Source: Desulfurobacterium sp. TC5-1 (GTDB lineage Bacteria > Aquificota > Aquificia > Desulfurobacteriales > Desulfurobacteriaceae). Taken from it: DNA of 64,000 bases. The translations under genes were made by a program, and so were the position numbers. Position 1 is the stretch's first letter; the number at the start of each line of letters is the position of its first letter. The notes beneath the pieces were generated by a model, which made no database searches, had not been told where the DNA came from, and saw only the letters and a list, made by a program, of their open reading frames with translations. The stretch spans positions 310,001 to 374,000 of the forward strand of contig NZ_ATXC01000001.1 in NCBI RefSeq assembly GCF_000421485.1, in the 5' to 3' direction. This document shows, piece after piece, positions 1,293 through 49,506 of this stretch.

Positions 1293-2633
1293 ATGAAAAA
1301 AGGGGATTTCAGGAAACTCCTCTCTGTGGTTTTCCTCCTTGTTCTTGCTTTCGTTTCCTTTTCATGTTTTTCAAAGAGCGAGAACAAAGAGGAGAAAACA
1401 ACTGCTGAAACAACCACAGCTGTTGAACAAGGAACGAAAACAGGGTCAACAGGAAAGAATGTTATTGTCATAGGTTATACTTCTTCTCAAACGGGAAAGT
1501 TTGCAACTGAGAGTCGTGAGCAATCAAACGGTCTTCAGTTGTGGGCCAGGGATGTTAATGCCAACGGTGGAATCTACGTTAAAGACTTAGGTAAAAAACT
1601 AAAGGTGGTTCTTAAAAGTTATGATGATGAAAGCTCTAAGGATAGGGTTCAGCAGCTCTATACAAGGCTTATTAATGAGGATCAGGCCGATTTCTTAATA
1701 TCTCCTTATTCTTCCGGTCTTACAGCTTCAGCAGCGGTTGTTACAGAGCAGTACGGAAAGATTCTCGTCGCAACAGGTGCTGCTTCTGATAAGATATTCT
1801 CAAAAGGTTATGAGTACGTTTATCAGGTTTATACGCCTGCATCTCGCTACCTCACAGATGCGGTTGATATCTTAAAGCAAAAAGATTCAAAGGTTAAAAA
1901 GATAGCAATCGTTTATGAAAATTCAAATTTTGCCAAGAGCGTTGCCACGGCTGCAAAAAAATATGCTGAAAAGAATGGGTTTAAGGTTGTTCTCTTTGAG
2001 AGCTATGAACCCGGAACTACAGATTTTACCTCTATGATTAACAAGATAAAAGCTTCTGGTGCTCAGGCCGTTATAGGTGGTGGTCACTTTACCGATGGTG
2101 AAACACTTGCTAAGCAGATTAACGATGCAAAGCTTAAAATTGACCTTCTTTCTATACTTGTTGCACCTGCGCTTCCTGAGTTTAGTGAAATTGGTAAAGC
2201 TGCCCTTTATGTTACTGGTCCTTCACAGTGGGAGTCTAAAGTTAAGTTTTCAAAAGAGACAACCCCTTCAGGATATGAGTTTTTCGGAATCTCTGCGGCT
2301 GATTTCGTAAAAGAGTACAAGAGTGCGTACGGAAATGTTCCCGGTTATCACGCTGCAGGTGGATACACTGCCGGGCTTGTTCTTCAAAAAGCCATAGAGG
2401 ATGCGGGAACGCTTAACAGTGAGAAGGTAAAGGCGGCTCTTGATAAGATGGATATCTATACCCTCTTTGGACACATAAAGTTTGATACCGGTGAATACCA
2501 CGGAAGACAGATAGGACATACAATGGTTATTATTCAGTGGCTTAATAAAGATGGTAATCTAAGCAAGGAAATTGTCTATCCTGAAAAGGCTGCAACGGCC
2601 AAGATAGTTATTCCTTACAGCTCTAAGTTTTAA
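1293..2633 (+). CDS. Branched-chain amino-acid ABC transporter, substrate-binding protein
   Basis: Periplasmic type I binding protein of the LivJ/LivK class, feeding the permease and ATPase genes that follow. Residues 1-25 form a signal sequence ending at Cys25 (SFSC). The box is atypical, but the Thr/Glu-rich linker after it suits a membrane-anchored lipoprotein. The mature protein opens with the family's IGYTSSQTGKFA strand, then YDDES and, further on, GYTAGLVLQKAIEDAG. At 446 aa it is slightly longer than classical LivJ. The substrate could be Leu/Ile/Val, another amino acid or urea; sequence alone does not settle it. Confidence 0.88.
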   Translation: MKKGDFRKLLSVVFLLVLAFVSFSCFSKSENKEEKTTAETTTAVEQGTKTGSTGKNVIVIGYTSSQTGKFATESREQSNGLQLWARDVNANGGIYVKDLGKKLKVVLKSYDDESSKDRVQQLYTRLINEDQADFLISPYSSGLTASAAVVTEQYGKILVATGAASDKIFSKGYEYVYQVYTPASRYLTDAVDILKQKDSKVKKIAIVYENSNFAKSVATAAKKYAEKNGFKVVLFESYEPGTTDFTSMINKIKASGAQAVIGGGHFTDGETLAKQINDAKLKIDLLSILVAPALPEFSEIGKAALYVTGPSQWESKVKFSKETTPSGYEFFGISAADFVKEYKSAYGNVPGYHAAGGYTAGLVLQKAIEDAGTLNSEKVKAALDKMDIYTLFGHIKFDTGEYHGRQIGHTMVIIQWLNKDGNLSKEIVYPEKAATAKIVIPYSSKF

Positions 2634-2639
2634 GATTTA

Positions 2640-2660
2640 GGGGGAGCTTCTCCCCCTTAT
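2640..2660 (+). terminator. Attenuating hairpin between binding protein and permease
   Basis: A 7-bp stem GGGGGAG/CTCCCCC with a 3-nt loop is followed by TTAT. It sits inside the liv operon, so it probably reduces read-through or protects the binding-protein mRNA 3' end, a common way to make more binding protein than permease. Confidence 0.5.
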
Positions 2661-2740
2661 CCATTTCCTGGTAGTTTTTAAAAGGGTGGCTTAGTGTGTT
2701 TTCCCGCTCTTTTAAAGATTATCAGGGTGGGAGGTTTGCT

Positions 2741-3571
2741 TTGAACGTTTATGCAGATGCTTTAGTTAACGGTATTTTGCTTGGACTTGTCTATGGTCTG
2801 GCGGCCATGGGGCTGGCTCTTATCTGGGGTGTTATGAAGGTTATTAACCTGTCCCACGGTGCTTTTATAACCCTTGGAATGTTCCTTTCTTACGTTGTGT
2901 TTGAATCTCTTCATTTTCCACCTTACATTTCAGTCTTTTTAGCTATTGTTGTTGGTCTAATTGCAGGTGTGATTACCTATTTTACGGCACTTCATAGGGT
3001 ACTTAACGCCGGTGAACTTTCAACACTGCTTTCAACCTATTCGGTTAGTTTGATAATCGTTGGTATTCTCATGTTTCTCTTTGCCACCACACCGAAGGCT
3101 CTCAATCTTGGAATGAACATTTTTACCGCTAAGATAATAGCAGCAGCGTTTTCTTTTGTGTTTTCTCTGGTTCTTTACTATTTCCTCTATAAAACCGATA
3201 CCGGTATGGCGATTAGAGCGGTTTCTCAGCACCCTGATGCTTCGAAGCTTATGGGAATAGATACCGTTAAGATTTTAGCCTTCTCTTTTGGACTGGGGGT
3301 TGCCCTTGCTATGGCTGCCGGTAACTTGATTTCAATGATCTTTCCTTTTTCGGTTCTTTCAGGCGGACTTTATGAGCTTAAAAGCTTTGTAATTTGCGTA
3401 ATTGGCGGTTTAGGAAATCCTCTTGGTGCTATTGTTGGTGGTATCGTTTTAGGAATCCTCGAAAATGTTTTTGGTCTGTTTGTGAATCAGGGGATTGTTC
3501 CATTTGTAGAGTTTACGATACTCCTTCTTATTCTTCTTTATAAGCCTCAAGGTCTTCTTGGAGGACACTGA
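2741..3571 (+). CDS. livH: Branched-chain amino-acid ABC transporter permease LivH
   Basis: Inner-membrane permease subunit of a Liv-type importer. The sequence is strongly hydrophobic with about eight segments and carries LVNGILLGLVYGLAAMGLAL near the N-terminus and the family loop FVICVIGGLGNPLGAIVGG near the C-terminus. I place the start at TTG 2741 because GGGAGG at 2729-2734 lies at ideal spacing and the protein then begins like other LivH proteins. An in-frame GTG at 2696 would add 15 hydrophilic residues without a good ribosome site. The stop overlaps the livM ATG by 1 nt. Confidence 0.9.
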   Translation: MNVYADALVNGILLGLVYGLAAMGLALIWGVMKVINLSHGAFITLGMFLSYVVFESLHFPPYISVFLAIVVGLIAGVITYFTALHRVLNAGELSTLLSTYSVSLIIVGILMFLFATTPKALNLGMNIFTAKIIAAAFSFVFSLVLYYFLYKTDTGMAIRAVSQHPDASKLMGIDTVKILAFSFGLGVALAMAAGNLISMIFPFSVLSGGLYELKSFVICVIGGLGNPLGAIVGGIVLGILENVFGLFVNQGIVPFVEFTILLLILLYKPQGLLGGH

Positions 3572-4536
3572 TGAAAAAGCATCTGGGATTTATTGTTTCT
3601 TTGCTCATTATACTTGCCTGTGGTGCTTATCCAATTGTTACAGGTTCACCTATGGCAAGGGAAGATATGTTCGTTATGCTTAGCTACATAGGACTTGCTC
3701 TTTCTCTTAACGTTTTGATGGGATTTACAGGTTATGTATCCTTTGGGCACGTGGTATTTTTTGGTATTGGTGGTTATACAACTTTTGCTCTCATCTATCA
3801 CTATGGAATTGGTCTTGTTCCCGCACTTATAGCGGGAGGTCTTGTCGCTGCACTCATAGCAGGTCTTCTTGGAATGGCTGTTTTGAACCTTAGAGGTGCC
3901 TATTTTGCAATAGCAACAATTGGTATAAATGAGGCGTTTAAGACACTTATTTCAAATATAGATTATCTCGGTGGTGCTGAAGGTCTCTTTTTTAACCTCA
4001 GAAAAGCATACTCACCTTACGGTGGTTCTCAAAAAGCACTCTGGTATTCTTTTATAATTCTTGTGATTGTTACACTAACTGCTTTAATTGTCAGTTTTTT
4101 GGTTAAACGTTCAAAGTTTGGTCTTGGTCTCTTTTCTATCCGTGAGGATGAAGATGCTGCTAAAGTTCTTGGGATAAATACTAAGCTTTATAAAACGCTT
4201 GCCTTTATGATATCCGCCTTTTTCCCCGGAATTATAGGGGGGCTCTTTTTCTTTAAAAACGGTAGCATTGATCCAAACAGTGCTTTTCATCTTTTGAAGT
4301 CTGTTGAAATGATATTTATGGTTATGCTTGGTGGTATAGGGACGATATTTGGACCTGTTGTTGGTGCTCTTACTTATGAAGAGATTCGTTCATATCTTCT
4401 TATTAATCCAACATTTAAAGACCTACATTTGGCTATTTCAGGTGTGATTCTTCTTCTTATTGTTCTGTTTATTCCAGACGGTATTGTTGGATTTTTGAGA
4501 AGGAAAGTTAAGTTTTTTAAAGAGGTTTTTGAGTAG
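3571..4536 (+). CDS. livM: Branched-chain amino-acid ABC transporter permease LivM
   Basis: Second permease subunit, 321 aa. It has the LivM signatures LSLNVLMGFTGYVSFGHVVF near residues 43-62, LRGAYFAIATIGINEAF around 107-123 and MVMLGGIGTIFGPVVGA near 250-266. These mark the conserved coupling region that contacts the two ATPases. The start overlaps the livH stop by 1 nt and livG follows after 11 nt, so the five genes form one transcription unit. Confidence 0.92.
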   Translation: MKKHLGFIVSLLIILACGAYPIVTGSPMAREDMFVMLSYIGLALSLNVLMGFTGYVSFGHVVFFGIGGYTTFALIYHYGIGLVPALIAGGLVAALIAGLLGMAVLNLRGAYFAIATIGINEAFKTLISNIDYLGGAEGLFFNLRKAYSPYGGSQKALWYSFIILVIVTLTALIVSFLVKRSKFGLGLFSIREDEDAAKVLGINTKLYKTLAFMISAFFPGIIGGLFFFKNGSIDPNSAFHLLKSVEMIFMVMLGGIGTIFGPVVGALTYEEIRSYLLINPTFKDLHLAISGVILLLIVLFIPDGIVGFLRRKVKFFKEVFE

Positions 4537-4547
4537 AGGGCAAAAAG

Positions 4548-5315
4548 ATGGCAGAGATTATTTTGAAGGTTGAGAATTTAACAAAGAGGTTTAAAGGGCT
4601 TGTAGCCTTAAATGGGGTCTCTTTTCAGATTGAAGAGGGAAAGATTTTGGGCATTATAGGCCCTAACGGGGCTGGTAAAACTACGCTTTTCAAGTGTATA
4701 ACTTCCGTTTATAAGCCCACCGGGGGAAGGGTTTATTTTAAAGGGCAAGACGTGACGAACCTTCCCACTTTCAAAAAGGCAAGGCTTGGTATTGCGAGAA
4801 CGCATCAGATAGTTAGGCCGCTGAAAGACCTTACGGTTTTGAAAAACGTTATGGTTGGCGCCTGTTTTGGCAAAAGGTATGCTTCGCTAAAAGAAGCGGA
4901 GGAGATAGCTATTGATGTTCTTAAGTTTGTGAAGCTTTATGATAAAAAAGATGTTGAGGCAGGTAAGTTAAACGTTCCTCAGAAGAAGAGATTGGAGCTT
5001 GCAAGAGCACTTGCAGGGGAACCGGAACTCCTCCTCCTTGATGAGGTTTTAGCAGGACTCACTCCAGGTGAAGTTAAAGAGATGGTTGAGATTATTAAGG
5101 AGATAAGGAACAGGGGAATTACGATTCTTATGATTGAACATCTGATGCACGCTATTATGAATGTTTCAGATAGAGTTATCGTTCTTGATTATGGTCAGAA
5201 AATAGCCGATGGGACACCTGAAAAGGTTGCCAATGATCCAAAAGTTATAGAAGCTTACCTTGGAGATCCTGAAATGGCTCTTAAGCTCCTGAAGGAGAAG
5301 AGAGATGGCGAATGA
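4548..5315 (+). CDS. livG: Branched-chain amino-acid ABC transporter ATPase LivG
   Basis: Cytoplasmic ABC ATPase, 255 aa. It has Walker A GPNGAGKTT, the LivG-typical GIARTHQIVRPL block, Walker B LLLDEVLAGLTPGEV and the switch histidine in MIEHLMHAIM. The ABC signature is unusual: LNVPQKKRLELARAL replaces the normal LSYGQQRRLE pattern, so both the Ser and Gly of LSxGQ are missing. The gene overlaps livF by 11 nt, which supports stoichiometric production of the two ATPases. Confidence 0.92.
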   Translation: MAEIILKVENLTKRFKGLVALNGVSFQIEEGKILGIIGPNGAGKTTLFKCITSVYKPTGGRVYFKGQDVTNLPTFKKARLGIARTHQIVRPLKDLTVLKNVMVGACFGKRYASLKEAEEIAIDVLKFVKLYDKKDVEAGKLNVPQKKRLELARALAGEPELLLLDEVLAGLTPGEVKEMVEIIKEIRNRGITILMIEHLMHAIMNVSDRVIVLDYGQKIADGTPEKVANDPKVIEAYLGDPEMALKLLKEKRDGE

Positions 5316-6024
5316 AATTGTTCTTGAAGTTAAAAATCTTGAGGCTGGATATGACGATGTTCAGGTTTTGTGGGGCGTTAATTTAAAGGTTAAAAAGCAT
5401 TCTCTTACAACTATAATAGGTGCCAATGGGGCAGGTAAGACGACAACGCTTAAATCTATTTGTGGCCTTCTTAAAGGAGTTAAAGGGACGGTAATTTTGA
5501 ATGGTGAGGATATTTCTTCTCTTCCTACTCACAAAAGGGTAGAGAAGGGACTTGTAATGGTTCCTGAAGGTAGATGGCTTTTCCCGGAGATGACAGTGCT
5601 TGAAAATTTAAGAATGGGTGCATTTACAAAAAGGGCAAGGGAAAAGAGAAATGAAACGTTAGAGTGGGTTTACACGCTTTTTCCACGGTTAAAGGAGAGA
5701 GCCAGTCAGAAAGCGGGAACGCTCTCTGGCGGCGAACAACAGATGGTTGCCATAGGAAGGGGCCTTATGGCAAGGCCGGAAGTACTTATTCTTGATGAGC
5801 CAAGTCTTGGTCTTGCGCCAAATCTTGTTCTTGACATTTTCAGGATTATCCAGGAACTTAAAAGTGAAGGTTTAACTGTGCTTCTTGTTGAACAGAACGT
5901 TCATCTTGGACTGGCGATATCCGATTACGCCTATGTGATGGAAAACGGCAAGATTGTGATGGAAGGCACAGGTTCAGAGCTTGAAAATGATCCTAAAGTT
6001 AAAGAGGCTTACCTGGGGCTTTAG
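5305..6024 (+). CDS. livF: Branched-chain amino-acid ABC transporter ATPase LivF
   Basis: Second ATPase of the importer, 239 aa. It has Walker A GANGAGKTT, the LivF block MVPEGRWLFPEMTVLENL, an intact signature LSGGEQQMVAIGRGLMARP and Walker B LILDEPSLGLAP. It overlaps the 3' end of livG. The stop overlaps the convergent permease stop by 3 nt, and its terminator lies within that opposing gene. Confidence 0.94.
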   Translation: MANEIVLEVKNLEAGYDDVQVLWGVNLKVKKHSLTTIIGANGAGKTTTLKSICGLLKGVKGTVILNGEDISSLPTHKRVEKGLVMVPEGRWLFPEMTVLENLRMGAFTKRAREKRNETLEWVYTLFPRLKERASQKAGTLSGGEQQMVAIGRGLMARPEVLILDEPSLGLAPNLVLDIFRIIQELKSEGLTVLLVEQNVHLGLAISDYAYVMENGKIVMEGTGSELENDPKVKEAYLGL

Positions 6025-11444: not shown

Positions 11445-11477
11445 ACTCTCAAATAAATTAAAAATATGGAGGTAGTG

Positions 11478-12278
11478 ATGAAAAGGGTGAAGAGTATTTA
11501 TCTCACGTTGCTTGCTCTTCTTGTGGCTTTTGTCTCTTTTCTTCCAGCTAAAGCCGGGACACTTGATAAGATCAAGAAGCGTGGGTACATGATCGTGGGT
11601 GTTAAGTACGATTTTAAACCTTTCGGGTTCGTAAACGAAAAGGGTGAAGTTGTTGGTTTTGACATTGACCTTGTTAAGTACATAGCTAAAAAGCTTGGTG
11701 TGAAGGTTAAGCTTGTTCAGGTTACTTCAAAGACGAGAATTCCGATGCTTGAAAGTGGGAGTGTTGATCTTGTAGCTGCTTCAATGACTCACAAGAGAAA
11801 GAGAGATCTTCCAATAGACTTTACCATAAGCTACTACTTTGACGGTCAGGCAATTCTGGCAAGGAGTGATTGCACCGCTAAAAGTTATAAAGATTTTGCA
11901 GGAAAAAGAGTTGCTGCCATCCAGGGTGCAACGAGCGGTCCTAACTTTAAAAAGGTTCAGCCAAGAGCGAAAATTGTTTACTTCCAGGAGTATCCTCAGG
12001 CTCTCATGGCTCTCATGAAGGGTAAAGTTGATGCTATTACAACAGATTATACCTGGTGTGCAACACAGGCAAAAGATTCTCACGGAAGACTTAAAGTTAT
12101 TGGTGAACCGTTTACCTATGAACCTTACGGCATGGGAGTAAGAGAAAACGACAGTGACTTCAGAGATGCTATCAACTTTGCTATTCAGGACGCTGTAATG
12201 GATGGTACCTATGCTAAAATTTACAAGAAATGGTTCGGTAAAGAACCTACAAGACTTCCAGAAGTTTGGCCTAAATAA
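11478..12278 (+). CDS. Polar amino-acid ABC transporter, substrate-binding protein
   Basis: Periplasmic type II binding protein, about 266 aa. The signal peptide MKRVKSIYLTLLALLVAFVS ends at PAKAG. The mature part opens with the SBP_bac_3 pattern TLDKIKKRGYMIVGVKYDFK and FGFVNEKGEVVGFDIDLVKY, the glutamine/glutamate-binding class hallmark. The in-frame ATG at 11466 overlaps its own ribosome site; ATG 11478 with GGAGG at 11468-11472 is preferred. It heads an operon with two permeases and an ATPase. Confidence 0.92.
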   Translation: MKRVKSIYLTLLALLVAFVSFLPAKAGTLDKIKKRGYMIVGVKYDFKPFGFVNEKGEVVGFDIDLVKYIAKKLGVKVKLVQVTSKTRIPMLESGSVDLVAASMTHKRKRDLPIDFTISYYFDGQAILARSDCTAKSYKDFAGKRVAAIQGATSGPNFKKVQPRAKIVYFQEYPQALMALMKGKVDAITTDYTWCATQAKDSHGRLKVIGEPFTYEPYGMGVRENDSDFRDAINFAIQDAVMDGTYAKIYKKWFGKEPTRLPEVWPK

Positions 12279-12290
12279 GAGGTTTGGTGG

Positions 12291-12998
12291 ATGATAGTTG
12301 ATCTACTTGTTGAGTTTAGAAGCTTAGTAATTCAAGGTTTTATAACCACGGTAAAGCTATCCCTCATCGGGATAGCTTTATCCACTATTTGGGGTTTTAT
12401 CATAGGATTTTTCAGAAATTCACGTTCCGAGTGGCTGAGAATTTTTGGCTATTACTATGTGGAACTTTTCAGAAATATTCCTCTGATTGTCCAGATTTTC
12501 TTCATCTATTTCTCCTTTAATATTGTTGATATTTTTCCCGTTTTGAAAATTGCCGCAAAAGTCCTTCACGTTGAAGATCCAAATGCATTTTTTTCCGCCC
12601 TCATAGCGCTTGTTCTTTATACCTCTGCCTACATTTCTGAAGTTGTAAGGTCGGGACTTAACGCTATTCCCTATTCACAGATAGAAGCAGCGATGAGTCT
12701 CGGTCTTACAAGGCTTCAAACGATCAGGTACGTTATCATTCCCGAGTTGTTCCTGATAATTATTCCAGCGCTTACGAATCAGTATTTGAACCTTATTAAA
12801 AACTCTTCACTGGCAATGACCATTGGTGTTGCAGAGTTAACTTTTGTAACCCAGCAGATAGATGCAGAAACGTTTAGAGGTTTTGAAGCAGCAACCATAG
12901 TGACGGTGCTTTATATAGTTTTGACACTTACAACATCGTTAATTATGAGTCTCGTTAATAGGTGGGTTTCTAAAAATGGCAGGCGTGTATTTGCATGA
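12291..12998 (+). CDS. Polar amino-acid ABC transporter permease (HisM/GlnP family)
   Basis: Inner-membrane subunit of 235 aa with five hydrophobic segments. Family signatures are FFRNSRSEWLRIFGYYYVELFRN, FRNIPLIVQIFF, and the EAA loop at SQIEAAMSLGLTRLQTIRYVI that docks to the ATPase. It is paired with a second, related permease gene that overlaps its end by 23 nt, giving a heterodimeric membrane domain. Confidence 0.92.
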   Translation: MIVDLLVEFRSLVIQGFITTVKLSLIGIALSTIWGFIIGFFRNSRSEWLRIFGYYYVELFRNIPLIVQIFFIYFSFNIVDIFPVLKIAAKVLHVEDPNAFFSALIALVLYTSAYISEVVRSGLNAIPYSQIEAAMSLGLTRLQTIRYVIIPELFLIIIPALTNQYLNLIKNSSLAMTIGVAELTFVTQQIDAETFRGFEAATIVTVLYIVLTLTTSLIMSLVNRWVSKNGRRVFA

Positions 12999-13776
12999 GA
13001 ACAAACGGAAAGAGCGTCTAATCCATTTAGGTGCTACGGTTATACTCGTGATTTTCCTGTTTTTCTATTTTCGTCACCTTGAGCTTAAACCGGTCCTGAC
13101 GAAAGACAACATCAGGTTTCTTCTTTTTGGGATGCCGGGTGAAATAGGTGGATTAAGTCTTACAATTTTGATGACAATTATTTTAATTCCTATTACCCTT
13201 GTCTGGGGTGCTATTCTTGCCGTTATGAGGAATTCAAAACTTTTTAAATGGTTTGCTACTGTTTATATTGAAGTGGTAAGGGCAACACCTCTTATAATGG
13301 TAATTTTCTGGGTTTATTTTGCTATACCTATATTCGTTAAAGGAGTAACCGGAAAGGACATATCTGTTCAGCCTGTTATTGCTGCGCTTATTGCGTTTTC
13401 TATCTTTACTTCGGCATACATTGCAGAAATTATCAGAAGTGGTCTCAATTCTATTTCAAGGGGTATAAAAGAAGCGGGTGAAAGTCTCGGTTTTACAAAA
13501 TTTCAGATCTACCTGTACATTATTATGCCGCTTGTTATTAAAAGGATGCTTCCAGCCCTTATTTCTCAGTATATTGCGATGTTTAAGGATACTTCTCTCG
13601 CTTACATTATCGGTGTTATAGAGTTTTTCCGTGCTGCAACGATTTTAAATAACCGTCTTTTTCTGAGTATGGAAATTTTCACCATAGTTGCAATAGTCTA
13701 TTTCATTATAGCCTTTTCTATGAGTAAACTTGCAAGACATCTTGAGGTTAAGTGGAGGAAGCAGTTAAGTGAGTAA
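12976..13776 (+). CDS. Polar amino-acid ABC transporter permease, second subunit
   Basis: Permease of 266 aa with an extra N-terminal membrane segment ([18 protein letters not shown]) before the conserved core. It carries [20 protein letters not shown] and the EAA loop [20 protein letters not shown]. The start is assigned at ATG 12976, inside the previous gene; GGTGGG at 12961-12966 may serve as ribosome site. The stop overlaps the leader of the ATPase gene. Confidence 0.9.
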
Positions 13777-13786
13777 GGAGAAAGCA

Positions 13787-14515
13787 ATGGAAGAGAAAAT
13801 AATAGAATTTATTCACGTTGGTAAGTACTTTGGTGATTTCAAGGTTCTTGATGATATAAACTTTGACGTGAAAAAGTCCGAAATTATAGTTATCTGTGGT
13901 CCGAGTGGTAGTGGTAAATCAACGATGATTCGTTGTATAAACAGGCTTGAAGAGATAGACGAGGGCAAAATTCTCTTTCACGGAAAGGATATAAGAGAGA
14001 TTAAACCTATAGAATTAAGAAAGAAGATAGGAATGGTTTTTCAGCATTTTAACCTGTTCCCTCACCTGACGGCTCTTGAAAATGTTATGCTTCCTCTTGT
14101 TAAGGTTCAGAAAAAGAAGAAAAGGGAGGCTGAAAAGATAGCTGTTGAAACTCTGGAGCGGGTTAGAATGGGCGATCAACTTCATAAGTATCCCAGTGAG
14201 CTTTCTGGTGGACAGAAGCAGAGAGTAGCAATAGCAAGGGTTCTTGCTATGAAACCGGAAGTTATGCTTTTTGATGAACCAACTTCTGCTCTTGATCCTG
14301 AAATGGTTAATGAAGTTCTTGATGTTATGAAAGGACTTGCAAAAGAAGATATTACAATTCTTTGTGTCACTCATGAGATGGGTTTTGCAAGGGAAGTTGC
14401 TGACAGGATAATCTTTATGGATAATGGTAAAATAGTTGAGAATACTGATGTGGAGACATTCTTCAAGCATGCCGAAAATCCAAGAATAAAAGAGTTCCTT
14501 TCAAAGATAATGTAA
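13787..14515 (+). CDS. Polar amino-acid ABC transporter ATPase (GlnQ-like)
   Basis: ABC ATPase of 242 aa. It has Walker [11 protein letters not shown]-loop [19 protein letters not shown], signature [19 protein letters not shown], Walker [16 protein letters not shown] and switch His in [15 protein letters not shown], the full GlnQ/HisP pattern. ATG 13787 is preferred because AAGGAG sits 6 nt upstream; an in-frame GTG at 13769 overlaps the permease end. Confidence 0.94.
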
Positions 14516-32388: not shown

Positions 32389-32500
32389 TTCAGTGAACTA
32401 CCTACGACTAAAGTCGTAGGCTTCTGAGGGAGTTTGGTAGGTTGTCCCTACCCTTATCCCTCCGGGCAGGTTCACGCTGCCCTCTACTCCTATCCCTGCT
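32389..32500 (-). ncRNA. Putative omega-RNA (reRNA) of the TnpB element
   Basis: Three strong inverted repeats crowd into the tnpB 3' end: 32464-32482 (GGGCAG/CTGCCC), 32436-32452 (GGTAGG/CCTACC) and 32401-32420 (9 bp, 2-nt centre). TnpB guide RNAs overlap the tnpB 3' end and right end in this way. The guide would be read from flanking DNA left of about 32389, i.e. the IS256 remnant. Transcript limits are guesses. Confidence 0.4.
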
Positions 32501-33810
32501 ATTTGCAGGGATTCGGAGATACCTTTCCCAAACTCGTAGATTCTTACCCTTACTACTTTCTTAAGTCCCGTCACAAGGTCAAACCACTTCCTTTTGAACT
32601 TCCTTAAGATGTTTCTCGCTCCGTTAACGTCTGCGTTAATGAGTCCTTTAATCGGTGATAGGAAAAGTCCTCTCTTTATCCTTCTTCCGTTACCCTTGCT
32701 CTCTTTTTTAACTCCTGCATTTTCGTCGCAGGAGTCGGTAACGGAAGTGTAGCTTTCGTCTATCAGCTTAACTTCTATCCCCACTTCTTTGAGCTTGTAT
32801 CTTAAGTATTCTGTTGCTTTCCCGTGCGGTAACAGCTTGAACATTTGATTCACAAGGTCTGGAAGGTTGTTTTCCTTATTCTTTGACTCCTGAACTTTTC
32901 CTATTACTACTGTCTTGACATTATTTAAAACCGCAAGCTTTGTTATGAGACTGCTTACTTTGTGTGCGTAGTCTCTTAAAAGGTTTTTAACACTTTTCCA
33001 AAGTCTGTGAAGTTTCCTCTCCAACTTAATCGTCGGCAGTCCTTTATTTTTTAGGTTATCAACTCTCTTTTGCAGGTTAAATATCTTTTTGAGCTTTTTC
33101 CTGAGAAGGGTCTTTAGACCTCTACCATCTATGATGTAAGAAATAGGATTTTTCTCTATCACACAGGTGGCAAAGTTTGATATTCCGTAGTCTATCGCTA
33201 ATACTTTGTTACTTTGCAGTTTGACCTCCGGAACTTTTTTCTCATACACTACTACCGCTTTAAAGCTTACCTGTCCGTAGGACTTATACGGAACTATCTG
33301 TATGTTGAGAACTTTGAGGTTTTCTAAGTCCTTATACCCTGTCTCTATCCATAGGTAAGCAGGTGAATATCCAAACTTTTTGAGCAGGTATTCTTTTAAG
33401 TTTTTTGATAGCGAAAGTCTTATCCTACTTCCTTCTATCTTGAATCCTGTTTTATCCCAAGTTACCACTCTGTGGGGAATTTCAGGATTTACGCAGCTTG
33501 GCGGTTTAACTACACTTACTCCTTTCTTTTTGAACTTCTTAGGGTCTTTTAGGAACTTGAAAAAGTTATTCCATCCTCTTGACAGCTCATCAAGGACTAT
33601 TTGAGCACAGCGGGATTGTAAGGAGCGTAAGTGTAGGGATTCATCTTTGAGTTTGTTGTAGAGGTCTCTGTAATCAGGTTTCGCTAACTTGTTCTTTATG
33701 AGGTAGTTTGCTTGATTCCAGAGTCTTCCAGCGTGGTAGGTGAGGTATCCGAGAATTATCTCTTGTTCTTCTGTCAAACGGTTTAACTCAAAAACTATCG
33801 CTCGTTTCAC
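32398..33810 (-). CDS. tnpB: TnpB RNA-guided nuclease, zinc-finger-less type
   Basis: A 470-aa OrfB/TnpB protein. The split RuvC acids are all present: D207 (AIDYGISN), E308 (GKVQESK) and D394 (INADVNGARN). Between the last two, DESYTS and GRRIKRGLF replace the usual CxxC...CxxC zinc ribbon; only one cysteine (C361) is left. This is a known TnpB subgroup rather than damage. The frame is intact, so the nuclease may be active. It starts at GTG 33810 behind AAGGAAA. The stop codon follows the right-end hairpin directly. Confidence 0.9.
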   Translation of the reverse strand: MKRAIVFELNRLTEEQEIILGYLTYHAGRLWNQANYLIKNKLAKPDYRDLYNKLKDESLHLRSLQSRCAQIVLDELSRGWNNFFKFLKDPKKFKKKGVSVVKPPSCVNPEIPHRVVTWDKTGFKIEGSRIRLSLSKNLKEYLLKKFGYSPAYLWIETGYKDLENLKVLNIQIVPYKSYGQVSFKAVVVYEKKVPEVKLQSNKVLAIDYGISNFATCVIEKNPISYIIDGRGLKTLLRKKLKKIFNLQKRVDNLKNKGLPTIKLERKLHRLWKSVKNLLRDYAHKVSSLITKLAVLNNVKTVVIGKVQESKNKENNLPDLVNQMFKLLPHGKATEYLRYKLKEVGIEVKLIDESYTSVTDSCDENAGVKKESKGNGRRIKRGLFLSPIKGLINADVNGARNILRKFKRKWFDLVTGLKKVVRVRIYEFGKGISESLQIAGIGVEGSVNLPGGIRVGTTYQTPSEAYDFSRR

Positions 33811-39175: not shown

Positions 39176-40453
39176 ATGCGGAAACTGTTGCTGTTTTTAT
39201 CCTGTTTTTTTGCCGTTTCTTCTGCTGCGTATGGCGGTAATGTTGATACCTTTGGTATAGGTTCTGCAGAAACGGCACTTGGCGGTGCTTACTCTGCTAC
39301 GGCAGACGATCCTTATGCTGTTTACTACAACCCTGCCGGTTTAATGCAACTTGATAGTCAGGTCGTTTCTGCCGGTTTTGAAATTCTTGATCCAACTTTA
39401 AGGATTCACGATTTTACCGCAGTTGATGGGACTGGGAGCGTTGTTCTTCCTTCCGATGCTTCATTCACTGACGTTTCAGATACGCTTTTCGTTCCTTTTG
39501 CTGGTTACGGAACGAAAATAAATGACAACTTTGCTTTTGGTATTGCTGCTTATATTCCTTATGGTCTCCATATTAAATGGGATTCTGACCCTGCAGTCAA
39601 TCCGGCCGCTTACAACTGTTTCGAGTCCTATTATATAAGGGGTGTTGTTACACCTACAGTTGCGTTCAGATTGACTGATGATTTAACGTTTGGTTTTGGT
39701 GTTTCTCTTGGTCGTTCCGATGCTGGTACTCAAAGGAGAATTTACGCTCCAACGCTACCATCCTTAAACAACAAGGTTATTAAGTCAGAGTTTTCAGATG
39801 ATTTCAATGTTTCTTACAACTTCGGTTTCATGTATAAACCTTCCAGGAGACTTACTCTCGGTTTGACTTACCGTTCACGAGCGAAAACCGACTTTACCGG
39901 CACTGTAGAAGTAGAGGGAACTTCTTACTTCACAAATGCTACGACAAAGATTGATCATCCTGAACAGATACAGGGTGGTATAAGGTATACGCCAGATGAT
40001 AGAGTTTCTATTGAGTTTGATGTTGTCTGGACACGGTGGAGCACGATAGATAAGTATATTGTTGATTTTGAAACACCGATACTTGGTAAAACTCAGGAAG
40101 TTTTCGTGAGGGACTGGCAGGATACGAGACAGGTTAGGATTGGTGTTTCCTATATTGTTAATGACGTTGTTACGTTGAGGGGAGGATACTTTTATGATCC
40201 TTCTCCCATTCCGGATCACACGTTTGACATGGCCTGGCCTGATGCTGATAAGAAAACCTACTCTGTAGGTGCCGGATTTAACTTTGGTAGAGTGAAGATT
40301 GATACGGTTCTTCAGTACAGTGTTGCCGAGAGTAAGAGAGAAATAGGCGGGGAAAGTGTTGAGTTAAATGAAACTTACGATGACGGGAGTGTATCCCTTT
40401 CTGCAGACGGCCATCTGTGGGGGTACGGTGTTACCGTTAGTTACACATTTTAA
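39176..40453 (+). CDS. fadL: FadL/OmpP1/TodX-family outer-membrane transporter
   Basis: A 425-aa outer-membrane beta-barrel for hydrophobic molecules. The signal peptide ends SSAAYGG. The mature N-terminus has the FadL hatch pattern GIGSAETALGGAYSATADDPYAVYYNPAGL, in which the NPA-type motif is diagnostic of the family. Amphipathic strands fill the rest, ending in an aromatic residue (VSYTF), as outer-membrane barrels do. A lipase-like lipoprotein gene starts 13 nt after its stop. Confidence 0.9.
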   Translation: MRKLLLFLSCFFAVSSAAYGGNVDTFGIGSAETALGGAYSATADDPYAVYYNPAGLMQLDSQVVSAGFEILDPTLRIHDFTAVDGTGSVVLPSDASFTDVSDTLFVPFAGYGTKINDNFAFGIAAYIPYGLHIKWDSDPAVNPAAYNCFESYYIRGVVTPTVAFRLTDDLTFGFGVSLGRSDAGTQRRIYAPTLPSLNNKVIKSEFSDDFNVSYNFGFMYKPSRRLTLGLTYRSRAKTDFTGTVEVEGTSYFTNATTKIDHPEQIQGGIRYTPDDRVSIEFDVVWTRWSTIDKYIVDFETPILGKTQEVFVRDWQDTRQVRIGVSYIVNDVVTLRGGYFYDPSPIPDHTFDMAWPDADKKTYSVGAGFNFGRVKIDTVLQYSVAESKREIGGESVELNETYDDGSVSLSADGHLWGYGVTVSYTF

Positions 40454-40466
40454 GAGGAGGTAAGTG

Positions 40467-42341
40467 ATGAGAAAATGGATTGCTCTCTTAACTATAATGG
40501 TTGCAGTTAGTTCGTGCGGAACCAAACTTGCGGAAACAGAAAATGCGTCTTCTGTTCCTGGAACAGAAATACCTATCGATAGAAATGGTCTTGTTTTCGA
40601 TCCTTCTGCCGAAAAAATACCATTTCCCAACGATATTATGTGGTCTCAGTACGGTGGTAATGTGACTCTACCGGTGGATGAAGCCTCTGATAATGCCACC
40701 AAGCTTCTCTACAGGGCAATTAATGCTCTTCACATAAAAGGTTTTAGTCCTAACATGTTTATTGGTGTTCCTCTTATGAACGATAAATCGTTAACTGATG
40801 TTTCCGGGCACTTTAAGCTTATAGATCTTACAGATTTTCAAGTTTGTGCTGCATCAAATGGTACATCTGCGGCATGTCTTGGTATGGATGAGACAGTCAA
40901 ACTTACATTCAGGCAGGATGGAGACTTTTTGAAATTTTATCCTGTAAGGCCTCTTGACGCAGGTCATCAGTACCTTTTTGTTTTAGAGAATGGAATAAAG
41001 GATAATTCCGGGAATGAGATTTTAGAGTCAGTCATGTATAAAGAGCTTGAAACAAACGATACTCTTTTAGACCCTCAGCTTGAAGCCTTGAGAGAAGAGT
41101 ATAAACCTCTTTACGATTCAGTGCTTCCTCAGTTTGGACTTTACAGAGATAACGTTCTTGAAATATTCACATTTACAACAGCGAACAAGACATTGTCAAT
41201 AAATGACTTTGGCGTTATAAATGAGGCTTTGACAAACAGCACGGTTGCGGATAACCTGGAAAGTTTAATAGGAGGATTGAACTATACTGATGTTCCTCTG
41301 GAATATAGAGGAATAGAAACTTTCATTCTATCAGGTCCTGTGGCACCGCTTCTTGGATTTGTTAATGGGACGAACAATACAGTTATGAGTGTTAATATAG
41401 CAGAGCAAACGTTGATGGCAGTTCCATATTCTATTTTCAATGGGGCAAATTTCTCTACCTATAATGATACGGTTTATGTTTTCCTCCACGGTTTAGGGGC
41501 AAATAGAACGGTGGCGCAGCTTTTAACAGGCGATATCCCTTACGCTGTTGTTTCGATAGACCTTCCATATCACGGCGACAGGGTGCTTCCAGACGATAAT
41601 CCTTACACAACCTGCTATGAGAATGTTTCTGGAAGCTGTTTCCTTACCGAAAATCCGGGTAGTGACAGGATAAACTTTTATCAGTCGATTTTTGATGCGC
41701 GAGTTGTATTAAGAGCTCTTGCTTCTGGAAGATTTGATATTGACGGTGATGGAACCCCGGATGTTCCTAAGAATATCGACCTTGTCGGTATGTCTCTCGG
41801 TAGTATCGTTGGTGGTTCTCTCCTTGGCATAGATAGCGCTACCAATAATACGATTTCAAAAGCTGTTCTAAACGTTGGTGCGGCAAATCTTGTTTCTGTT
41901 CTTGATACTGCGACTAACAGTATGATAACGAATCTCCTTGGGACTCTTGGAGTTGAGAAAAACTCTATCGATTACTTTGTGACTCTTGGCATTTTCCAAA
42001 CGCTTCTTGATCCTGCAGACCCATCATATCTTGCCGGCAATGTTGCAAACAAGACGATAATTCAGTCTGCCTATGGTGATTCTATACTTCCATACGTATC
42101 CAACTTATCTTTTGCCAAATCCATAGGATTCAGTAACTATACAGAGGTGGATTTCTCAAATGTAACAGTTGCCCCAGGATGGTACATGTTTGGTAATAGT
42201 TCCGCTTATGTAAATCACGGTTTCCTGTTAAGCACAAATACGACTTATTACCCGGAAGTTTCCGATTATCTTGCTGATGAATCTGTTCTTCAGGATGCTC
42301 AGAAAGCTGCAAGGGAACAGATAAAAGATTTCTTTCAGTAA
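40467..42341 (+). CDS. VolA/Pla-1-like surface lipoprotein lipase
   Basis: A 624-aa lipoprotein: signal peptide with lipobox VSSC (Cys17), then a beta-rich N-terminal domain opening with FDPSAEKIPFPNDIMWS, typical of VolA/Pla-1/cef lipases. The hydrolase domain shows VFLHGLGANRT (oxyanion loop), YHGDRVLPDD, the nucleophile elbow G441-M-S443-L-G and a late His in YVNHGFLLS. Vibrio VolA is a surface lysophospholipase that works with FadL to feed on exogenous lipids. The same pairing here supports the call. GTG 40464 is an alternative start; GAGGAGG favours ATG 40467. Confidence 0.8.
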   Translation: MRKWIALLTIMVAVSSCGTKLAETENASSVPGTEIPIDRNGLVFDPSAEKIPFPNDIMWSQYGGNVTLPVDEASDNATKLLYRAINALHIKGFSPNMFIGVPLMNDKSLTDVSGHFKLIDLTDFQVCAASNGTSAACLGMDETVKLTFRQDGDFLKFYPVRPLDAGHQYLFVLENGIKDNSGNEILESVMYKELETNDTLLDPQLEALREEYKPLYDSVLPQFGLYRDNVLEIFTFTTANKTLSINDFGVINEALTNSTVADNLESLIGGLNYTDVPLEYRGIETFILSGPVAPLLGFVNGTNNTVMSVNIAEQTLMAVPYSIFNGANFSTYNDTVYVFLHGLGANRTVAQLLTGDIPYAVVSIDLPYHGDRVLPDDNPYTTCYENVSGSCFLTENPGSDRINFYQSIFDARVVLRALASGRFDIDGDGTPDVPKNIDLVGMSLGSIVGGSLLGIDSATNNTISKAVLNVGAANLVSVLDTATNSMITNLLGTLGVEKNSIDYFVTLGIFQTLLDPADPSYLAGNVANKTIIQSAYGDSILPYVSNLSFAKSIGFSNYTEVDFSNVTVAPGWYMFGNSSAYVNHGFLLSTNTTYYPEVSDYLADESVLQDAQKAAREQIKDFFQ

Positions 42342-42346
42342 TTGAA

Positions 42347-42367
42347 AGGGGAGCTTTAAGCTCCCCT
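42347..42367. terminator. Bidirectional terminator hairpin between lipase gene and ilvD
   Basis: A perfect 21-nt palindrome with 10-nt arms AGGGGAGCTT/AAGCTCCCCT lies between convergent stops. T-runs are short on both sides, so termination may be partial. Confidence 0.55.
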
Positions 42368-47001: not shown

Positions 47002-47082
47002 GGTTCCTCCCTTATAGAATGTTCTGTAAAAGTTATAATTGCATTATAAGACACCTACTATAAATATGGAGGGTTTTTGAAA

Positions 47083-49506
47083 ATGGACAATAGAGACGTT
47101 CTCTGGTTAAGGGAGGTGACTCTGGAGGATGTTCATCTTGTAGGGGGAAAGAATGCCTCTCTGGGGGAAATGCTTAATGCACTTTCTTCAAAAGGAATTA
47201 ACGTACCTGACGGTTTTGTCGTGACAGCTCATGCTTACTTTAGATTTGTAGATTTTAACAACCTGAGGGATAAGATAATAGAAGTTATAAGCTCTATTGA
47301 CATTAAAGATGTTGAGGATCTTCAAAGAAAAGCCGGTGTTATAAGGGCTCTTATAAGGGAAGGGAAATTTCCTGAAAATATGGAGAAAGAAATCCTTGAG
47401 TACTACCGTGCTCTTGGTGAGAAGTACAACATGGAAAACGTTGATGTTGCCGTTCGTTCTTCTGCTACGGCTGAGGATCTTCCGGATGCGTCGTTTGCCG
47501 GCCAGCAGGATACCTATCTAAATATAAGAGGGGAATCTGCCCTTCTTGATGCGGTAAAGCGTTGTTTCGCTTCACTTTTCACGGCGAGAGCCATATCTTA
47601 CCGCGAAAGTTTTGGTTTTGATCACTTTAAAGTAGGTATTTCGGTGGGTGTTCAGAAAATGGTTCGTTCTGACCTTGGTGCTTCTGGGGTCTGTTTTTCT
47701 CTCGATACAGAAACGGGATTTAAGGATGTTGTTTTGATAACGGGTATTTACGGCCTTGGTGAGTTGATAGTTGGTGGTGAGGTTGTTCCAGATGAATTTT
47801 TGGTTTTTAAGCCAACTTTAAAGAAAGGTTACAGGGCAATAATAGAGAGAAAACTTGGGGATAAAGAGAAAAAACTTATCTACACAGACGACGGTGAGGG
47901 AACTGTAGTGGATATTGTTCCTGAGGAAGAAAGAAAAAGGTTTTGCCTTTCGGATGAAGAAGTTTTAAAGCTTGCTGATTGGGTTCTAAAGATAGAAGAA
48001 CACTATTCAGAGCTTCACGGTAGATGGTGTCCCATGGATGTTGAGTGGGCAAAGGATGGGATAAGTGGGGAGCTTTTTATTGTTCAGGCTCGTCCAGAAA
48101 CTGTTCAGTCAAGGAAAGACAGGAGTAAACTCACTGTTTATAAAATAGAACTTCCCCGGGAAGAGAGAGAGGAGAGGCGAATCCTTAAAGGAATTGCTGT
48201 CGGGAACAAAATAGCAAGTGGAAAAGTTAGAAAGCTTTCATCCCCTGAAGATGCTTCAAGTTTTAAAGAAGGTGAGATACTTGTTGCCGAGATAACAGAT
48301 CCTGACTGGGAACCTATTATGAAGAAAGCAGCCGCTATTGTTACTGAAAGAGGCGGAAGAACCTGTCATGCTGCCATTGTTGCGAGAGAACTTGGTGTTC
48401 CTGCAGTTGTTGGAGCTAAAGGCGCACTTGATCTTCTATCAGATGGTCAGACAGTTACTGTCTCCTGTGCAGAGGGGAGCGACGGATATGTCTATGATGG
48501 TGAGATACCGTATTCCGTTGAAGAGGTTGATATTTCTGAAATTCCCGAGGTTAAAACACCAATCATGTTTAACGTTGCAACACCAGAAAAGGCTTTTGAA
48601 CTTTCCTTTTTGCCGAATGATGGTGTAGGCCTTGCAAGAGAGGAATTTATAATAAATAATTACATCGGTATCCACCCTCTTGCTCTTTTGCACTTTGACT
48701 TTATTGCAGAAAGGGATCCGGAAGTTGCTAAAGTTATAAATGAGAGAACGTTTGGATACGATAATTTAGTTGATTTTTACGTTGATAAACTTTCCTACGG
48801 AATTGCCAGGATAGCGGCTGCTTTCTATCCAAAACCTGTTATAGTCAGATTTTCCGATTTCAAATCAAACGAGTATGCAAATCTTTTAGGCGGTTCTTAC
48901 TTTGAACCTAAGGAAGAAAACCCGATGCTTGGATGGCGGGGTGCATCAAGGTACTATTCAGAAAAGTTTAGAAAGGCTTTTGGTCTTGAGTGTATTGCTA
49001 TAAAAAGGGTTAGAGAAGAGATGGGTCTTGATAATGTGATTGTTATGATTCCATTTTGTCGTACGCCCGAAGAGGGCAGAAAAGTTCTTGAGGTAATGAA
49101 AGAATATGGACTTGAGAGGGGAAAAAACGGTTTAAAGGTTTACGTGATGTGCGAGATTCCTTCTAACGTTATTCTTGCTGAGAGATTCTCAGAGATTTTT
49201 GACGGTTTCTCGATAGGTTCAAACGATCTTACGCAGCTAACACTTGGACTTGATAGAGATTCAGAGCTTGTTGCTTCTATATACGATGAGAGGAACGAGG
49301 CTGTTAAGTTTATGGTTGCTTCCGTTATAGAAAAGGCTAAAAAGTTAGGTCGCAAGGTTGGAATATGCGGGCAGGCCCCTTCTGACTATCCGGAATTTGC
49401 AGAATTTTTAGTAGAAAAAGGTATAGACACCATATCTATCAATCCAGATGCCCTTTTAAAGACAAGAAAGGCGGTTGCTGAAATAGAGAGAAAATTGGGA
49501 CTATAG
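47083..49506 (+). CDS. ppsA: Phosphoenolpyruvate synthase (pyruvate, water dikinase)
   Basis: Makes PEP from pyruvate and ATP, the entry to gluconeogenesis. About 807 aa with the ATP-grasp domain (GGKNASLGEM; RSSATAEDLPDASFAGQQDT), the swivelling phosphohistidine domain (TERGGRTCHAAIVAREL) and the TIM-barrel PEP domain (GSNDLTQLTLGLDRDS; VGICGQAPSDYP). ATG 47083 is preferred, with GGAGGG 9 nt upstream; an in-frame TTG at 47077 adds two residues. It fits autotrophic growth together with the aldolase gene further on. Confidence 0.97.
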   Translation: MDNRDVLWLREVTLEDVHLVGGKNASLGEMLNALSSKGINVPDGFVVTAHAYFRFVDFNNLRDKIIEVISSIDIKDVEDLQRKAGVIRALIREGKFPENMEKEILEYYRALGEKYNMENVDVAVRSSATAEDLPDASFAGQQDTYLNIRGESALLDAVKRCFASLFTARAISYRESFGFDHFKVGISVGVQKMVRSDLGASGVCFSLDTETGFKDVVLITGIYGLGELIVGGEVVPDEFLVFKPTLKKGYRAIIERKLGDKEKKLIYTDDGEGTVVDIVPEEERKRFCLSDEEVLKLADWVLKIEEHYSELHGRWCPMDVEWAKDGISGELFIVQARPETVQSRKDRSKLTVYKIELPREEREERRILKGIAVGNKIASGKVRKLSSPEDASSFKEGEILVAEITDPDWEPIMKKAAAIVTERGGRTCHAAIVARELGVPAVVGAKGALDLLSDGQTVTVSCAEGSDGYVYDGEIPYSVEEVDISEIPEVKTPIMFNVATPEKAFELSFLPNDGVGLAREEFIINNYIGIHPLALLHFDFIAERDPEVAKVINERTFGYDNLVDFYVDKLSYGIARIAAAFYPKPVIVRFSDFKSNEYANLLGGSYFEPKEENPMLGWRGASRYYSEKFRKAFGLECIAIKRVREEMGLDNVIVMIPFCRTPEEGRKVLEVMKEYGLERGKNGLKVYVMCEIPSNVILAERFSEIFDGFSIGSNDLTQLTLGLDRDSELVASIYDERNEAVKFMVASVIEKAKKLGRKVGICGQAPSDYPEFAEFLVEKGIDTISINPDALLKTRKAVAEIERKLGL

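Follow-up and report, generated by a model that had tools for sequence, protein, structure and literature searches.

A FadL-type channel and a divergent VolA-like hydrolase form a family-wide gene pair in Desulfurobacteriaceae, with a possible role in acyl salvage

What would a lipid-scavenging gene pair do in a presumed autotroph? The question is raised by a stretch of 64,000 nucleotides from Desulfurobacterium sp. TC5-1 (contig NZ_ATXC01000001.1, positions 310,001 to 374,000; hereafter the window), in which the gene of a FadL-type outer-membrane channel is followed by that of a VolA-like lipoprotein alpha/beta hydrolase, also called the lipase below. A preliminary description, made from the sequence alone, had likened the two to the lipid-scavenging pair of Vibrio. 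Vent bacteria of the Desulfurobacteriaceae type are thermophiles and are thought to be autotrophs. We find that the pair is genuine, that it is a divergent variant of the known lipid-scavenging pair and that it is a core trait of Desulfurobacteriaceae (Aquificota). New is its family-wide presence in bacteria in which two key fatty-acid-burning enzymes were not found. The reading we prefer, with a probability of about 0.5, is that of a two-gene outer-membrane unit for acyl salvage, feeding membrane lipids and not classical beta-oxidation.

The two-gene unit of a FadL channel and a lipoprotein hydrolase with GMSLG, as first described, was confirmed: both open frames are present, the channel matches PF03349, the hydrolase carries a lipobox, and its gene begins downstream of the channel gene after a gap of 10 bp (Table 1). 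The distribution of the pair was followed in 61 genomes, which comprise the window's own, those of the family (22 in all), and those of the order and class, with a threshold of E ≤ 0.001 for the lipase. It is present in 21 of the 22 Desulfurobacteriaceae genomes and was not found at this threshold in the 39 other genomes of order and class; the FadL family PF03349 was found in the same 21 family genomes. Completeness is at least 90% in 16 of the 22, and 99.8% in the window's own genome, where no further VolA-like lipase was found. No plasmid-borne relative was detected in 72,556 plasmid records.

The channel gene lies directly upstream of the lipase gene in 19 of the 21 lipase-bearing family genomes, namely the window's own and those of 18 relatives. 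Because of this adjacency and of the narrow gap, which spans 8-28 bp over 17 measured pairs including that of the window, the pairing exceeds chance. The two exceptions are G015, where the contig ends, and G009, where the genes are on separate contigs. In G009 (L045, L062) both frames are intact; FadL keeps the neighbours it has in relatives, a tsaB-like and a rimI-like gene, and the lipase is found among other genes. The gene ilvD is present in 12 of the 21 stretches compared, often together with rimI-like and tsaB-like genes (gene names as we read them). One of the 21 comes from Desulfurellales, another is the isolated FadL stretch of G009, and some are cut by contig ends. This common neighbourhood suggests vertical descent of the pair within the family. 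In the remaining family genome, G004 (98% complete), neither lipase nor FadL was found, and by its IlvD the genome belongs within the family (support 82/89). We do not count this joint absence as evidence, because the contig with ilvD stops short of the place where the pair would be expected by comparison with many relatives, and an assembly gap may explain it.

The channel matches Pfam PF03349 over its full length (E 4.5e-65, 220.2 bits, cut-off 29.7), which makes it a member of the FadL/OmpP1/TodX family. It stays below the cut-off of the Escherichia coli FadL equivalog model NF007988, with 76.1 of 585 bits. The AlphaFold2 model of the channel has a mean predicted local distance difference test score (pLDDT) of 75, and its top Foldseek match is E. 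coli FadL (E 5.6e-28, template modelling (TM) score 0.76), although identity to solved FadL structures is about 20%. The model thus has the FadL beta-barrel fold, and the alignment shows the NPA motif, which belongs to the hatch of FadL. Titles of Protein Data Bank entries among the FadL structure matches name N33A, P34A and delta-NPA mutants. The window FadL is 61-90% identical to those of 17 relatives whose matches span all or nearly all of the protein. The FadL alignment (A2) holds 17 of 21 sequences; G013 and G015 (both cut), G012 (internal stop) and G018 (no standard start codon found) were left out. A second, divergent FadL-like protein is encoded elsewhere in the window's own genome (L060:6657-7877, equivalent to G000:C1:33656-34876), with BamG as its best NCBIfam match (55.8 of 250 bits), and additional FadL-type matches are present in G001 and G003.

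The hydrolase is a distant relative of VolA/Pla-1 and, judged by the curated cut-off of 383.9 bits of model TIGR03502, is not a member of that family (E 1.6e-24, 86.2 bits). The same model was matched at E ≤ 0.001 by all 19 family homologues in the lipase alignment (A1). Of the 21 family lipases, this alignment leaves out two that are cut by contig ends, those of G015 and G020; the 18 relatives in it are 40-79% identical to the window lipase. Adding two sequences from Desulfurellaceae/Desulfurellales, one from Polyangiaceae and one from Archangiaceae gives a set of 23 homologues that spans three phyla; these four score 37-113 bits on TIGR03502. A lipoprotein signal was recognized by the lipobox, with just 12.8 of 20 bits for Pfam LPAM_1. 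Ser443, Asp538 and His584 make up a putative catalytic triad, assigned from the alignment, where Asp515 and Asp518 are as invariant as Asp538; the HGLG stretch (341-344) is also invariant in the 19 family sequences. Fifteen aligned lipases from other genera carry extra inter-domain residues, and the four without them belong to the window's genus.

Since phmmer searches up to E 1 revealed no sequence relative of the hydrolase among solved structures, its AlphaFold2 model (mean pLDDT 80) was used in a fold search. An alpha/beta hydrolase fold extends over residues ~300-624 of the model, and the GxSxG serine, Asp and His are in place in the alignment. The closest folds are carbohydrate esterases (Z-score 18.8, 253 residues aligned, root-mean-square deviation (rmsd) 3.1); monoglyceride lipase follows with a Z-score of 16.7 (220 residues, rmsd 3.3), and membrane phospholipase A (6i8w) is among the Foldseek matches. 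Similarity of fold does not by itself identify the substrate. Between two core elements lies a loop (residues 369-403 of A1, with low model confidence at 369-391) that has a cysteine at residue 391 in 17 and at residue 383 in 8 of the 19 sequences, and which is a possible disulfide-closed lid.

Table 1. Positions of the FadL-hydrolase unit and of its diagnostic residues in the window
Feature	Position	Strand	Remarks
FadL-type outer-membrane channel	39176..40453	+	425 amino acids; signal-peptide-like start; C-terminal Tyr-Thr-Phe
NPA motif, N52-P53-A54	39329..39337	+	invariant in 17/17 aligned FadL
VolA-like lipoprotein alpha/beta hydrolase	40464..42341	+	625 amino acids from GTG; 624 from ATG at 40467
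Lipobox cysteine Cys17 (numbered from ATG 40467), VSSC	40515..40517	+	invariant in 19/19 family sequences, 23/23 with other phyla
Putative catalytic Ser443 in GMSLG	41793..41795	+	invariant in 19/19 and 23/23; predicted role
Putative catalytic Asp538	42078..42080	+	invariant in 19/19 and 23/23; predicted role
Putative catalytic His584	42216..42218	+	invariant in 19/19 and 23/23; predicted role
Intrinsic-terminator-like hairpin	42347..42367	+	closes the unit, ahead of convergent ilvD

Outside the family, a scan of one genome per species by motif patterns, which gives a lower bound, disclosed at least 14 loci: ten in Desulfurobacteriaceae, among them Desulfurobacterium and Thermovibrio, two in Desulfurellaceae/Desulfurellales bins, one in a Polyangiaceae bin and one in Archangiaceae. 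The first ten (L066-L075) are family genomes already included above and were not counted again. The two Desulfurellaceae/Desulfurellales bins (Campylobacterota) carry the same pair. In the Polyangiaceae bin the order is reversed, lipase then FadL, with an overlap of 4 bp, and no relative of the window FadL was found in the stretch examined around the Archangiaceae lipase. The likeness to the Vibrio-type pair stands as far as a compact FadL and VolA-like unit goes, seen family-wide and in two more phyla, while the hydrolase itself is a remote relative of VolA below the cut-off. The Desulfurellaceae pairs L076 and L077 have the gene order of the window, with FadL 54-55% and lipase 28-30% identical to those of the window. 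They differ in the length of the lipases (779 and 783 amino acids, 37-41 bits on the VolA model) and in the presence of 5 and 4 acyl-coenzyme A (acyl-CoA) dehydrogenase matches. Recent transfer between Desulfurobacteriaceae and Desulfurellaceae was also considered; FadL is 50-55% identical across the two, and the housekeeping enzyme IlvD is no different (52 and 54%, two genomes), so that FadL taken by itself does not point to such a transfer.

The lipase diverges much faster than FadL: relatives share 37-79% identity with the window lipase and 61-90% with the window FadL. Surface lipases can be antagonistic, and such divergence, together with the separation of the two genes in G009, would suit a weapon or biofilm factor, that is, a hydrolase damaging the membranes of neighbours, with FadL as a passenger or an independent nutrient channel. 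We regard this as highly improbable; that the genes are closely paired in two families from different phyla, and with inverted order in a Polyangiaceae bin, speaks for a common function.

What becomes of imported fatty acids was addressed by searching for degradation enzymes, as had been proposed in the preliminary description. Acyl-CoA dehydrogenase was found in none of the 22 family genomes by a search that was positive in 9 of 14 genomes used as controls. Enoyl-CoA hydratase exceeded the cut-off in none of the 22 and in 11 of the 14 controls; weak matches below the threshold occur in 15 family genomes, and the window's own genome has none. The negative result covers these two enzymes of beta-oxidation; no search was made for thiolase or 3-hydroxyacyl-CoA dehydrogenase. 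With both not found, the pair can hardly feed classical beta-oxidation here, which makes this fate of fatty acids unlikely and suggests reuse of acyl chains in membranes rather than feeding. Lipid uptake or remodelling, the role first proposed, is thus best retained as remodelling or salvage, and use as food is unlikely. Catabolic scavenging, in which lipids of neighbours serve as food, is for the same reason the least probable of the alternatives considered, although a FadL and VolA-like pair is present as in Vibrio, and although acyl-CoA dehydrogenases accompany the pair in another family. Among 16 genomes of Desulfurellaceae (the family of G061), PF03349 is found in 15 and the lipase in 7, one of which (G078) rests on a fragment of 46 positions; in the six non-fragment carriers the lipase adjoins a close FadL. 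Acyl-CoA dehydrogenase is present in 7 of 7 lipase carriers (6 of 6 without G078) and in 3 of 9 non-carriers, an association with a one-sided Fisher p of 0.0105, uncorrected for relatedness and drawn from genomes of unstated completeness.

Acyl salvage for membranes is inferred because acyl-CoA dehydrogenase and enoyl-CoA hydratase were not found; the reading builds further on the gene pair, the fold, the invariant putative triad, the lipobox and the conservation throughout the family. The lipoprotein hydrolase, presumably anchored in the outer membrane, would act at the cell surface or close to it on acyl esters, most likely lysophospholipid or phospholipid. Fatty acids released in this way would cross the outer membrane through the adjacent FadL, and an adenosine monophosphate (AMP)-forming ligase, about 530 amino acids long and found in most family genomes, may activate them inside for membrane-lipid synthesis. 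Neighbouring cells and the envelope of the cell itself are both conceivable as lipid sources, which sequence does not tell apart. The candidate ligase has 561 amino acids in the window's own genome, where it lies near G000:C1:142308, and 524 in G004, and its best model is long-chain-fatty-acid-CoA ligase. A match of about 530 amino acids was found in 20 of the 22 genomes (in G003 split over two frames); beyond these, G020 has a fragment of uncertain type and no match was found in G012. The window's own genome has acetyl-CoA synthetase and PaaK-like ligases as well.

Several observations weigh against acyl salvage. The hydrolase is so distant from VolA that its substrate cannot be taken for granted, and the stretch that best matches TIGR03502 is N-terminal (residues 2-239), outside the catalytic domain. 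Pfam Abhydrolase_6 stays below its cut-off (24 of 26.3 bits) and was matched at E 0.001 by only 3 of the 19 homologues; with the VolA cut-off far out of reach and this match weak, the substrate may be a different one. In G009 the pair is split, with FadL and lipase on different contigs, and G067 of Desulfurellaceae has a FadL of 47% identity with no lipase beside it. The candidate ligase scores 273 bits in the window's genome and 302 in G004, of 476, below every curated cut-off shown; it lies elsewhere in the genome, unlinked to the pair, and is also present in G004, where the pair was not found, so its link to the pair is conjectural. DegV/FakB, the other route of activation considered, was found in none of the 22 family genomes. 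In Desulfurellaceae, finally, the pair may serve degradation.

The main rival to acyl salvage is upkeep of the outer membrane without foreign lipid: the hydrolase would remove phospholipids that have strayed to the cell's own outer leaflet, and FadL would return the acyl chains. We hold this quality control to be unlikely. In E. coli, phospholipids strayed into the outer leaflet are removed by PldA, and PldA, searched for as an alternative outer-membrane phospholipase, was found in none of the 22 family genomes. A core trait of presumed autotrophs whose 22 genomes yielded no acyl-CoA dehydrogenase would also agree with such a function. The absence of PldA says little, however, since its model was found in just 2 of the 14 control genomes, and the acyl-CoA dehydrogenases of Desulfurellaceae carriers point to scavenging.

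Less probable still, and in our view doubtful, is another hydrophobic substrate, such as an aromatic ester, a quinone or a signal ester, released by the hydrolase and then imported. Features in line with it are the weak match of the window lipase to a lactone-hydrolase model (E 0.00032, 19.9 of 182 bits), the similarity of the FadL model to the monoaromatic (toluene) channel TodX (E 2.9e-20, TM 0.67), and the presence in the window's own genome of indolepyruvate oxidoreductase subunits together with a PaaK-like ligase (each scoring below its curated cut-off), by which arylacetates may be taken up. The FadL model is nevertheless nearer to E. coli FadL than to TodX (5.6e-28 vs 2.9e-20). A variant of this explanation has elemental sulfur passing through FadL alone; both Desulfurobacteriaceae and Desulfurellaceae include sulfur reducers, but the hydrolase would be left without a job, and among the papers listed by a literature search on FadL and elemental sulfur no title links the two.

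Acyl salvage has its closest parallel in Vibrio, where volA and fadL are co-transcribed. In V. cholerae, VolA releases fatty acids that enter through FadL and are put to new use, without beta-oxidation, by an acyl-acyl carrier protein (acyl-ACP) synthetase (PMC12208996). The overall plan, a lipoprotein alpha/beta hydrolase adjoining a FadL gene, is the same in the window. The fate proposed here, reuse without beta-oxidation, would likewise be that of acyl-ACP synthetase recycling (V. cholerae VC2484; Slr1609), described in the same source (PMC12208996), although the candidate ligase, below every curated cut-off shown, may be of the acyl-CoA or of the acyl-ACP class. Unlike the V. cholerae protein, the window hydrolase reaches 86.2 of 383.9 bits, with its best match in the N-terminal part, and comes from another phylum and a thermophile; acyl-CoA dehydrogenase and enoyl-CoA hydratase were, in addition, not found in Desulfurobacteriaceae. 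Surface exposure, which VolA is reported to retain when expressed in E. coli (PMC5500766), is putative for the window hydrolase. Among the titles and beginnings of abstracts listed by literature searches, none treats a lipase-FadL pair in Desulfurobacteriaceae. In the main texts of PMC5441870 and PMC12724263 the terms FadL, fatty acid and lipid are absent, and lipase occurs once, where PMC5441870 speaks of type II secretion in general terms. The Desulfurella genome paper PMC5317093 does not mention fatty acid, FadL or lipase.

The hairpin behind the unit is stable (-16.3 kcal/mol, z -3.51), and none of 200 shuffled sequences was equally so. Terminator-like sites in the region number 2, against a shuffle mean of 2.8, and are not enriched. 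A scan for consensus promoters found seven sites, none of them upstream of the pair. The placing of the pair beside autotrophic gluconeogenesis genes holds in that a phosphoenolpyruvate synthase gene (47077-49506) is nearby; it begins 4.7 kb from the pair, with the convergent ilvD and other genes between, and this is mere proximity.

Other genes of possible organic uptake were noted as well. The segment L059:263-8153 (G000:C1:1226262-1234152) encodes the alpha (606 of 650.9 bits) and beta (134 of 227 bits) subunits of an indolepyruvate oxidoreductase, with two divergent PaaK-like ligases near them, one matched by 530.9 of 646.3 bits and the other by PF00501 alone. These genes suggest that arylacetates are taken up to make aromatic amino acids, which would be a further route of salvage in this presumed autotroph. 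Two ATP-binding cassette (ABC) transporter clusters in the window (1293-6024 and 11466-14515) resemble amino-acid importers and hint at organic uptake; a LivG-like ATPase reaches 227 of 362 bits and a binding protein of lysine/arginine/ornithine type 178 of 256, both below cut-off, and the binding protein at 1293 has no NCBIfam match at 1e-30. The window also contains, on the minus strand (32398-33810), a gene for a TnpB-family RNA-guided endonuclease (NF040570, 133.5 bits, cut-off 100).

Pairs of a VolA-like lipase and FadL are now seen to reach into Aquificota and Campylobacterota, both far removed from Vibrio, where the pair was described. In a wider and more tentative formulation, a module of VolA-FadL type, uncoupled from catabolism, could be a core trait of vent autotrophs that reclaim acyl chains, from their own shed envelope or from neighbours, for membranes. 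The usual model of an autotroph derives all of its lipids from CO2. If acyl salvage is true, the pair would offer a clean system for studying the purpose of FadL when beta-oxidation is missing, and vent primary producers would recycle or scavenge acyl chains, which would affect lipid-biomarker and isotope readings from vents.

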